NCBI RefSeq assembly: GCF_007954625.1
Contig: NZ_CP042420.1
Span: 124,001 to 188,000, forward strand
Source of the DNA: Leuconostoc lactis
GTDB taxonomy: Bacteria; Bacillota; Bacilli; Lactobacillales; Lactobacillaceae
Length of the DNA stretch: 64,000 nt
Direction of reading: 5' to 3'
The notes below the pieces were generated by a model. It had not been told where the DNA came from. It saw only the letters and a program-made list of their open reading frames with translations, and searched no databases. The translations under genes and the position numbers were made by a program. Shown in pieces: positions 25,430 through 28,011 of this stretch. The number at the start of each line of letters is the position of its first letter. The stretch's first letter is position 1.

Positions 25430-26284
25430 TTATTTTGAGAACCATTTATTTTCAATTTGCGTTAAGCGCCCATCTTTTTTAAAGGCTGCTAACGTTTGAT
25501 CGACTGCTTCTCGTAATTGATTATCGGACTTTCGGAAACCGACTGCCGTTTGATCAATTGGGAAATCACCAACAGTCACAGTGTAATCCTTTGGATTTGG
25601 TTGGTGGGCAACGTAATAACGCGCATAATCTTCATCAATTAACAGCCCATCAATGCGCCCAGCATTCAAATCATTGAACGCTTTGTCAAAGGTATCATAC
25701 CCAACCACCTGCTGGTCTTTCACGTATTGCTTAAGGACCTTTGGATACTTGTTAAAGCCTTCATCACCACTAGAAGCCGTTTGGTCGCCCAAGACTTTAT
25801 CCTTCATATCTGAGAAACGATTAATGTTATTTTTCTTAAGCGTTACCAGTACTTGAGTCGCCTTGTGGTAAGGCTTAGAAAAGGCCACCTGCTTTTCACG
25901 TGCTTTGATCACCGTATAGCCATTCCAGATCGCATCGATATTCCCAGTATTCAGCTCGGTTTCTTTCATCGACCAATCAATGGGCTGCCATTTGACTTTA
26001 ATGCCCATCGTTTTAAAGACTGCCGTCGCCAAATCAACATCAAACCCAACAATGTTCCCCTCTTTATCACGGAAACCCATTGGTACAAATGTATCATCCA
26101 ACCCAATCGTAATTTGTTTGGCTTTCTTGATACGTGCCCAGTCTGCCGTTTGGGTGGTTTGTTGTTCATTTTGCGCAGTTCGCTTCGCACCACTGCTTAA
26201 ACTCATCGCCGCCCAAATCACAACACCAACAAAGAGCAGCCCGACTAACGTATTGACAATAATTTTTTTCTTCATACTTACCAT
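25430..26284 (-). CDS. amino-acid ABC transporter substrate-binding protein, probable histidine
   Basis: Family 3 extracellular solute-binding protein, 284 residues. The N-terminal membrane segment (about 8-28) has no lipobox cysteine. It is followed by the usual GLDDTFVPMGF and GFDVDLATAV ligand-domain stretches. The start codon overlaps the ATPase gene stop by one base, with GGAGG 11 bases upstream. It is third in the operon behind the T-box leader, whose specifier reads CAC. Substrate is therefore inferred to be histidine, as for T-box-controlled HisXYZ-type transporters predicted in Lactobacillales. It is not proven by the protein itself. Confidence 0.88.
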   Translation of the reverse strand: MVSMKKKIIVNTLVGLLFVGVVIWAAMSLSSGAKRTAQNEQQTTQTADWARIKKAKQITIGLDDTFVPMGFRDKEGNIVGFDVDLATAVFKTMGIKVKWQPIDWSMKETELNTGNIDAIWNGYTVIKAREKQVAFSKPYHKATQVLVTLKKNNINRFSDMKDKVLGDQTASSGDEGFNKYPKVLKQYVKDQQVVGYDTFDKAFNDLNAGRIDGLLIDEDYARYYVAHQPNPKDYTVTVGDFPIDQTAVGFRKSDNQLREAVDQTLAAFKKDGRLTQIENKWFSK

Positions 26285-26922
26285 CAGCGACTGACCTCCG
26301 TTGCAAAATCAAACACGCGATCCGATACCATTTCTGCAAAAGGTTGATCGTGCGTAATAATCAACTGCGTCACACCTTGCGCTTTGAGCGTTTTCACGAC
26401 TTCCGCAACCTGCTTAGTTGACGCCTCATCTAAACCACTGGTTGGTTCATCATAGGCCAAAATTTTGGGATCCATTGCCAACGCCCGTGCAATCGCAACC
26501 CGCTGTTTTTGCCCACCCGATAGTTGGTAGGGATATAACGCTGCCTTATCAGCCATACCAAGCGTGGTTAACAACGCTGTCGCCTTGGCCTTAGCCGCAT
26601 CACGTGACAGCCGGCTTACGTTAATGGGCGCGAGCATAATATTTTCAATCACGGTGTAGTTTGGAAAAAGATTAAAATCTTGAAAGATCAAACCAACCTT
26701 CGCATCCGCACGCGTGCCGTCAATGGCTAGCTGTTCACCGTTGAGGCGTACTTCACCAGCATCGGCCGTTTCCAGACCAGCTAAAATTTTAATCAAGGTT
26801 GTTTTACCAATACCTGATGGGCCGACAATACTGAGTACTTCACCATCTGCTACCGATAAATCCAACGCTTTAAAAATTGTATTTGTGGTATATGTTTTCG
26901 TTAACTGTTTAATTTCTAACAT
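26284..26922 (-). CDS. amino-acid ABC transporter ATPase
   Basis: Nucleotide-binding subunit, 212 residues, shorter than the usual 240 or so of polar amino-acid transporters. It keeps Walker A GPSGIGKTT (about 34-42), signature LSGGQKQR and Walker B ILAYDEPTSGLD. The gene lies three bases after the permease. It drives uptake with the adjacent permease and binding protein. Confidence 0.93.
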   Translation of the reverse strand: MLEIKQLTKTYTTNTIFKALDLSVADGEVLSIVGPSGIGKTTLIKILAGLETADAGEVRLNGEQLAIDGTRADAKVGLIFQDFNLFPNYTVIENIMLAPINVSRLSRDAAKAKATALLTTLGMADKAALYPYQLSGGQKQRVAIARALAMDPKILAYDEPTSGLDEASTKQVAEVVKTLKAQGVTQLIITHDQPFAEMVSDRVFDFATEVSR

Positions 26923-26925
26923 CGC

Positions 26926-27567
26926 TTATCTCCAACTATTCAATCGCGTTTCACTACGGCGTAAGAGGACTGTCACAACGGCCGTCATCAGCAAATAAAT
27001 CAGCCCAACCAACAAATAAGGCACCAACGTCACATCACGGCTAGCCGCAATGTTTCCTGCTCGTAACAAGTCACCCAAACCGATGACATAAACTAATGAC
27101 GTATCTTTAACCAAATTAATCACTTCATTACCAAATGATGGCACGATAATTTTAATCACTTGTGGCAAGATAATCTTGAAAAATGTTTGGACGCGCGTAA
27201 AGCCTAATACTTTCGCAGCGTCATATTGGCCACGCGGAATTGCTTGCAACCCACCACGGAAAATTTCGGCGAGATAAGCTGCATAGTTGACGATAAAGGC
27301 AATCGCAGCAGCTTCAAAACGGGGAAAAGTAATGCCCATCATCCCCAAACCATAATAGACGAAAATCAGTTGCAACAGGAGCGGTGTCCCCCGCATCACC
27401 CAGATATAACCATTAATCAACCAGCGAATGGTAAAATAAGGTGATTTCATCCCCAATGCCACAATAATACCTAATGGCACCGACCCAATAATGGTAATAA
27501 AGAAAACCCCTAACGTCATTTTCAACCCTGACATTAAACTGGGCAAAATTTCTAACAAATAATTCAT
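26926..27567 (-). CDS. amino-acid ABC transporter permease
   Basis: HisMQ-type permease, 213 residues, with five or so hydrophobic segments, the GTPLLLQLIFVYYG stretch and the EAA loop around FRGGLQAIPRGQYDAAKVLG. A single permease gene implies a homodimer. It is first in the operon, with AAAGGAG upstream and the T-box leader in front. Confidence 0.93.
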   Translation of the reverse strand: MNYLLEILPSLMSGLKMTLGVFFITIIGSVPLGIIVALGMKSPYFTIRWLINGYIWVMRGTPLLLQLIFVYYGLGMMGITFPRFEAAAIAFIVNYAAYLAEIFRGGLQAIPRGQYDAAKVLGFTRVQTFFKIILPQVIKIIVPSFGNEVINLVKDTSLVYVIGLGDLLRAGNIAASRDVTLVPYLLVGLIYLLMTAVVTVLLRRSETRLNSWR

Positions 27568-27608
27568 CCTACTCTCCTTTGCGCGATATTGATTAACTTT
27601 AAGCGATT

Positions 27609-27644
27609 AAAAAAGTCCCCTTGCAAAATAACTTGCAAGAGGAC
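27609..27644 (-). terminator. second (proximal) T-box terminator
   Basis: Minus strand 12-bp stem (arms 27633-27644 and 27615-27626, one G-T pair), loop of 6, then six T. It is closest to the structural genes. Confidence 0.88.
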
Positions 27645-27651
27645 GCGTCAG

Positions 27652-27665
27652 CGTGGTGCCACCTC
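27652..27665 (-). promoter_or_regulatory. second T-box sequence
   Basis: Minus strand GAGGTGGCACCACG, matching the T-box core AGGTGGNACC. A hairpin with arms AATTTTGT / ACAAAATT precedes it, like a Stem III. Confidence 0.82.
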
Positions 27666-27723
27666 AGATTCTAATTTTGTTCACACAAAATTACTCCGTC
27701 AGTCTTTTGGTTTAATGGTTGCA

Positions 27724-27763
27724 AAAACGCCCTCTGAATACAGGTGTATTCAGAGGGCGTTTT
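27724..27763 (-). terminator. first (distal) T-box terminator
   Basis: A nearly perfect 18-19 bp palindromic stem ending in a T run on the minus strand, directly after the first T-box. Confidence 0.92.
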
Positions 27764-27778
27764 CCGCGGTGCCACCTC
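27764..27778 (-). promoter_or_regulatory. first T-box sequence
   Basis: Minus strand GAGGTGGCACCGCGG, a full match to the canonical T-box that pairs with the tRNA acceptor end. Confidence 0.93.
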
Positions 27779-27983
27779 TTATCGCAAAACCATCACTGGT
27801 AGTTGCCTCAATAAGTCAAAAGACTGTTTGCGATAACGGGCAAAACCGATATGACCTACTCGATTCAATCATACACTCACAGATGTGTTTCAACTAACAC
27901 CACTGTTTGCTCACACTACCCGCAAACTCCCTTAAAGTGATGCTAATCTACTCTTCCGCTCAACGTTTTTTAATATAAAGCTT

Positions 27984-28011
27984 AGTATAATCTATTTTTT
28001 TATTTTGTCAA
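27984..28011 (-). promoter_or_regulatory. promoter of the T-box leader and transporter operon
   Basis: Minus strand TTGACA (28006-28011), 16-base spacer, TATACT (27984-27989), immediately after the mreD stop. Confidence 0.8.

Follow-up and report, generated by a model that had tools for sequence, protein, structure and literature searches.

In the available part of one review, the discriminator of a T-box is described as being made up of Stem III, the purines on either side of it and the antiterminator, a unit that is necessary and sufficient for sensing aminoacylation (PMC7583486). Regulatory regions mostly contain a single T-box; a tandem is reported before the histidine transporter of five Enterococcus species, and His T-boxes on hisYZX are listed for Leuconostoc among others (PMC9413887, accessible part). 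BCAA operons with tandem T-boxes need two uncharged tRNAs, according to the part of PMC12452182 that was available. Partially tandem T-boxes are mentioned in the accessible text of the review cited first, where their mode of action is called unknown (PMC7583486); the suspicion in a first-pass annotation of the present locus, that partial duplication might already be known, was thus well placed.

The leader at 27972-27609 on the minus strand of the Leuconostoc lactis window (the whole 64-kb stretch of DNA that was analysed) comprises one complete His T-box and a second discriminator module without Stem I, and the first-pass observation of such a layout is confirmed. Read on the minus strand from 28011 to 27567, the locus opens with a promoter-like site, continues as a leader some 400 nt long and ends where an ABC transporter operon begins; mreD is the gene upstream of the leader. 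Both T-box cores and both terminators were found on the minus strand exactly where they had been proposed, with a CAC specifier as expected for the histidine type and, also as claimed, a strong terminator after each core (Table 1).

Table 1. Features of the leader and the downstream operon, in the order of transcription.
Feature	Position	Strand	Evidence
Promoter-like TTGACA-16-TATACT, directly 3' of the mreD stop codon	27984..28011	-	11/12 consensus letters
Module 1, complete T-box (Stem I, II, IIA/B, III, antiterminator)	27750..27972	-	RF00230, 106.4 bits
Specifier CAC (His), in Stem I	27885..27887	-	sequence reading, RF00230 match
Stem IIA/B: CGG hairpin + CCCGUUA; loop UUUUGC complementary to GCAAA	27827..27848	-	sequence, RF00230 alignment
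Strand A (CAGUC) + loop UUUU, linker hairpin	27818..27826	-	sequence, A:A'' tests
Strand A' (GACU), local partner of A	27814..27817	-	4 pairs
Stem III of module 1, purines GAG just 5'	27784..27806	-	minimum-energy fold, z -0.9 (weak alone)
Antiterminator 1, T-box core 27764-27778 inside	27752..27779	-	sequence, RF00230
Terminator 1 (T1)	27724..27763	-	-29.3 kcal/mol, z -11.3
Strand A'' (AAAAGACUG), complementary to A + loop, opens module 2	27700..27708	-	complementarity tests
Purines GGAG + Stem III of module 2	27672..27697	-	covariation, 19 leaders
Antiterminator 2, T-box core 27652-27665 inside	27639..27665	-	covariation, 19 leaders
Terminator 2 (T2), with U run	27609..27644	-	-20.2 kcal/mol, z -6.6; terminator scan
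Ribosome binding site AAAGGAGAG	27572..27580	-	sequence reading
ABC transporter permease, hisY-like	26926..27567	-	PF00528; TIGR01726
ABC transporter ATPase	26284..26922	-	PF00005
Substrate-binding protein, family 3	25430..26284	-	PF00497

The RF00230 match of module 1 spans model positions 1-219 and exceeds the gathering score of 93; it is the sole Rfam match at gathering scores within the window. The host genome holds 18 T-box matches at E <= 0.001, two of which pass the cut-off, and the best score is that of the present leader. The promoter scan returned one such site against an average of 1.2 in shuffles, which is weak by itself; TTGACA is kept in 20 of 20 aligned leaders. The pseudoknot of Stem IIA/B was read by eye. 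The linker hairpin formed by A, its loop and A' sits between Stem IIA/B and Stem III of module 1, and its four A:A' pairs are invariant across 19 leaders, hence without covariation; the position of the following Stem III agrees with RF00230, yet the alignment there has three non-standard pairs. From its anatomy, module 1 is predicted to set an antiterminator against a competing intrinsic terminator. The fold energies of T1 and T2 were each reached by none of 200 shuffles; a simple terminator scan listed only T2, with T1 absent.

The operon downstream is probably a hisYZX-like histidine transporter. Its permease is 99% identical to a Leuconostoc lactis permease, and TIGR01726 is the sole NCBIfam model over its cut-off for this protein. 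No family model above cut-off names histidine, the models giving an amino-acid transporter; the histidine assignment is made because of the CAC specifier and the listing in the accessible part of PMC9413887.

For comparison, a permease match was found in 59 of 60 relatives, and loci were taken from the best 30. All 19 same-genus leaders (L019-L037, the present one included) have both cores. Two cores 83-138 nt apart were found in 176 of 397 Lactobacillaceae genomes and 18 of 40 genera, a count that includes at least one genome (G029) whose sole match is not T-box-like and misses five Leuconostoc genomes with off-pattern cores (G003, G006, G011, G012, G018). A chance layout was ruled out, the pattern read backwards having matched in one of the 397 family genomes. 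The pattern also occurs in 50 of 105 genomes and 10 of 17 genera of another family of the same order (f3, by our inference Enterococcaceae), and in 18 of 398 genomes from a sample of the class, part of them not T-boxes. Single-core leaders were seen, for instance, in Convivina, Fructobacillus, Liquorilactobacillus and Oenococcus. Among 102 unique double leaders, 89 precede a hisY-like permease, as do all 22 tested f3 leaders, two of which belong to the 89. The specifier pattern CACA(A/C/T)C is matched in 79 of these 89; nine of the other ten have CAC at the specifier site, and L162 has CAC at the end of the inspected stretch.

For the 13 other double leaders, downstream genes were assigned by eye from protein starts: L189, L190 and L192-L197 precede genes of DAHP synthase or chorismate mutase type, L154 (a Lactobacillaceae genome) an APC-type permease and L205 an NSS-type transporter; in L202 and L203 the gene is alaS-like and the second core would fall inside it, and the gene behind L191 is of no clear type. 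L189, L190 and L192-L197 all belong to family f14 of the class sample, and their cores are closely spaced. Complementarity of the kind described below for A and A'' was absent at p <= 0.05 in seven of these eight (the exception being L189, p 0.033), and the f14 double cores look like an independent partial duplication that works differently.

Several other leaders depart from the layout. In L. fallax (L038; placed in another genus) core 2 is degenerate and reads TGGGAAC, and core 2 of Secundilactobacillus hailunensis (L074) is degenerate as well; by eye, an A''-like segment and a Stem III-like hairpin are kept in L074 and in L038/L066 with core 2 altered, and in both species the second check may be on its way out. 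L046 and L048 carry two T-box cores about 350 and 270 nt apart upstream of the permease, and are perhaps complete tandem T-boxes, an alternative to partial duplication. In L028 and L029 (tentatively L. gelidum KCTC 3527 and L. inhae KCTC 3774), antiterminator 1 is one C short (ACGCCTCT vs ACGCCCTCT); a draft sequencing error is possible, since L. inhae DSM 15101 (L051) keeps the C.

Between T1 and core 2 of the L. lactis leader lie 58 bases with a 9-bp Stem III hairpin, in agreement with the roughly 58 bases with a Stem III-like hairpin claimed in the first-pass annotation. That annotation had also claimed that a second Stem I is lacking and had named in advance the finding of one by a covariance model as refutation; the RF00230 search of module 2 (27735-27560) found neither Stem I nor Stem II nor a specifier there. 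Module 2 alone aligned to model positions 131-219 only, with the 5' end cut, at 24.5 bits (E 0.00059), below the gathering score of 93, and the matched part is Stem III and the antiterminator. A complete tandem T-box was ruled out at this locus, a second full sensor not having been found and core 2 lying only 58 nt from T1.

In an alignment of 19 Leuconostoc leaders, the 26 pairs of A:A'', Stem III-2 and antiterminator 2 are paired in 99.6% of cells, and in 41-52% when the module 2 pairing is slid out of register. Six of these pairs, in 18 cells, are changed on both sides, compared with 2.8 pairs and 4.3 cells in shuffles; four belong to Stem III-2, one to antiterminator 2 and one to A:A'', so that the covariation support for module 2 comes mostly from Stem III-2. 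The pairs of Stem III-2 thus covary within Leuconostoc, with four of nine changed on both sides and 100% of cells paired; antiterminator 2 is likewise paired in 100% of cells, and one of its pairs goes from C-G to U-A in two leaders. As judged from this alignment, module 2 is under selection. AAG or GAG stands 5' of Stem III in both modules of 89/89 double leaders, and AA stands 3' of Stem III, before the core, in 73/89 for module 1 and 87/89 for module 2, these motifs being so short that chance contributes to the counts.

Module 2 hence carries the features of a T-box discriminator, i.e. the purines, Stem III, the AA and a UGGNACC bulge between two helices, and the duplicated unit looks like a discriminator domain plus its own terminator, given the definition of the discriminator as Stem III with purines and antiterminator in the accessible part of PMC7583486. 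It seems quite improbable that module 2 is a backup terminator which lowers the leak only, with core 2 a relic out of contact with tRNA: T2 is strong and core 2 is degenerate in L. fallax (L038) and S. hailunensis (L074), as such a reading would have it, but core 2, antiterminator 2, Stem III-2 and the purines are otherwise conserved and both helices covary, whereas a pure terminator needs no such parts and would keep the operon shut. It is highly improbable that a second uncharged tRNA binds core 2 in trans with no Stem I involved. Such binding would demand a complete T-box core and a Stem III, and both are there; set against it, decoding is assigned to an obligate Stem I (PMC7583486, accessible part), module 2 without a specifier could not tell tRNA-His from other tRNAs, and the fourth base of the core varies.

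The fourth base of UGGN (27774-27771 and 27661-27658), which pairs with the discriminator base of the tRNA, is A, C or T in core 1 of 89/89 and in core 2 of 88/89 double leaders; the single-core leaders of Convivina and Fructobacillus have G. Bacterial tRNA-His has C73 paired with G-1, and the non-G base may reflect this pairing. One pattern search for a tRNA-His gene found none, and tRNA-His was absent among the ARAGORN tRNAs in the scanned loci (part of 45 places).

Strand A with its loop (CAGUCUUUU, 27826-27818) is complementary to A'' (AAAAGACUG, 27708-27700), a pairing that was missing from the first-pass annotation. In Secundilactobacillus (L067) GAAGUUUA faces UAAACUUC, in Lacticaseibacillus (L077) GUGGUUGAAAAAC faces GUUUUUCAACCAC, and in L030 (tentatively L. 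citreum) a loop G is matched by a C in A''. Across 18 groups the letters of A and A'' differ and complementarity is kept, above most cross-group swaps: in the gapped test (see below) the own A'' beats on average 87% of the A'' from other groups in f3, and 95-100% in the remaining 17 groups. Because the leaders are related, their numbers are not counts of independent events, and the between-group swap is the fairer measure.

A first test, based on RNAduplex energies in wide windows, gave a weak result, with p <= 0.05 in 29 of 102, we think because terminator strands entered the window; the contiguous-helix and local-alignment tests were chosen afterwards, when the pairing had also already been spotted by eye. 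With 300 mononucleotide shuffles per leader, a contiguous A:A'' helix was supported at p <= 0.05 in 72 and at p <= 0.01 in 53 of the 87 Lactobacillaceae his-transporter leaders (median score 11.0, vs 6.4 in shuffles), and at p <= 0.05 in one of the 15 remaining double-core stretches, among which two f3 his-transporter leaders failed the test. The end of A'' lies 33-36 nt 5' of core 2 in 79 of the 87. The gapped (local-alignment) test gave z > 2 in 78 of the 89 double leaders, and in one of 14 leaders without a nearby second core; two of these 14 controls (L046, L048) carry a farther second core, two (L063, L064) are alike, and three leaders with a degenerate core 2 (L038, L066, L074; z 0.7, 0.5, 2.2) were excluded from them. 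In L. fallax, A'' is visible by eye with z 0.7 and 0.5 in the gapped test. The own A:A'' score exceeded that of the reversed A'' window in 85/89, of the Stem III-2 window in 88/89 and of a window upstream of A in 87/89.

The pairing is not equally strong throughout. Eight of the 11 leaders (of 89) with z below 2 are from Leuconostoc, where five of the nine A:A'' pairs never vary and one pair has a two-sided change, in one sequence; in L036 and L037 the helix is down to 5 bp, by eye. In f3, five of 22 leaders have z > 2, and at the usual place most matches span 5-8 bp. The best uninterrupted helix has its A'' side off the usual place in L047, L164, L167, L177, L179 and L198, and its A side in L138. 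In two f3 leaders (L207, L223), the segment that opens module 2 matches more than A; its complementarity, though interrupted, extends over the entire A-loop-A' hairpin and the purines 3' of it.

Alternatively, the helix could be no more than a scaffold, or could have been left over passively when A' was duplicated, with both modules read by the same tRNA and RNA flexibility allowing its acceptor end to get to core 2 with no strand exchange. A'' is placed as A' is in module 1, common descent explains part of the likeness, and A:A'' is weak in f3 and in L036/L037; we nevertheless rate this reading as unlikely. A'' covers at least three loop letters of the A-A' hairpin in 73/89 leaders (68/80 for those with A'' at the usual place), for which a passive copy is insufficient, since a copied A' would complement A and not the loop; A'' also tracks the group-specific changes of A in the swap control. 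The best A:A'' score is higher than that of A:A' in 89/89 leaders, and by at least 3 in 71, in a comparison that flatters A:A'', whose score is a maximum over a window, and in which the A-A' hairpin was picked automatically and is doubtful in some rows.

In 73 of the 89 leaders (helix score >= 9; local hairpin of >= 4 bp found) the geometry was compared: the distance from the end of A' to core 1 equals that from the end of A'' to core 2 within 1 nt in 69, with a median of 35 nt for both. As these core distances are equal, A:A'' would rebuild the A:A' junction with module 2 in place of module 1. When ViennaRNA was given module 1 and antiterminator 2 with T2 omitted, the mean probability of A:A'' was above 0.5 in 61/89 leaders and below 0.1 in 21/89, and 0.87 in the L. 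lactis leader. The minimum-energy fold of the whole L. lactis leader with T2, computed without tRNA, has A:A' and not A:A''.

Taking the anatomy, its conservation, the covariation of module 2, the complementarity and the equal geometry as read from the sequence, we infer a strand exchange, a relay of the tRNA and an effect on the response. We regard it as fairly probable that this His T-box combines a single decoding domain, made up of Stem I, II and IIA/B, with two discriminator modules that can replace one another, each with its own terminator, and that a swap from A:A' to A:A'' makes the change. In the standard T-box step, tRNA-His would bind at the CAC codon; discriminator 1, as long as A pairs with A', would lie beside the decoding domain and probe the 3' end of the tRNA, and a charged tRNA would lead to termination at T1. 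On read-through of T1, A'' would emerge, displace A' and pair with A and the loop, which would loop out module 1 and bring discriminator 2 into the same position, about 35 nt from helix to core; the tRNA that is already bound, or one binding anew to that Stem I, would be probed again ahead of T2. A'' is transcribed about 90 nt before the end of T2, so the exchange can precede the second decision, and because transcripts stopped at T1 are without A'', T1 must be read through before A:A'' can play a part, as would suit a relay of the decoding domain and its tRNA to discriminator 2. The first-pass interpretation is supported in part, including its proposal that one specifier serves both decisions, which the A:A'' helix strengthens.

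Checking twice in succession would reduce basal read-through and provide a proofreading step. With the same tRNA still bound, the two checks would multiply the chance of stopping a polymerase that was wrongly let pass, with less leak; should the tRNA be replaced between T1 and T2, a steeper response to the charged fraction may result as well. To the full reading, i.e. one sensor with two exchangeable platforms, a swap that passes the same tRNA on, and kinetic proofreading on hisYZX in many Lactobacillaceae genera, we give an even chance. If true, this would provide a natural example of a single RNA sensor used for two consecutive transcription decisions, and RNA switches with little leak could readily be built on its plan.

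Duplicated terminator-antiterminator elements in T-boxes are reportedly described in a comparative paper by Vitreschak et al. 2008 (RNA 14:717); the leader fits this class, with one Stem I and two such elements. To our knowledge, the A:A'' strand exchange is not part of that description. No description of the exchange was found in the accessible text of the open-access literature searched, which leaves subscription papers largely outside and novelty not proven. The partially tandem T-box is a known kind, and the A:A'' helix is new here; it offers a concrete candidate mechanism for half-duplicated T-boxes, with sharp mutational predictions, in lactic acid bacteria, which are themselves widespread.

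Module 1 belongs in full to the transcriptional His T-boxes of RF00230 that lie on hisYZX in Lactobacillales (PMC9413887), with the same kind of operon and the same specifier; what sets the L. lactis leader apart is the extra discriminator and terminator, which come with no second Stem I. In its accessible part, the typology of tandem riboswitches (PMC9481103) names pairs of aptamers that act on a single platform, and complete units placed one after the other. The present leader has in common with it a series of two expression platforms; one aptamer serving two platforms in turn was not seen in that part, where Table 1 is hard to read. With the complete tandem T-boxes of trp, thrS and BCAA operons (PMC12452182, available part) the leader shares two successive terminators of the same family; in those tandems each unit has its own sensor, whereas the L. 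lactis leader has one.
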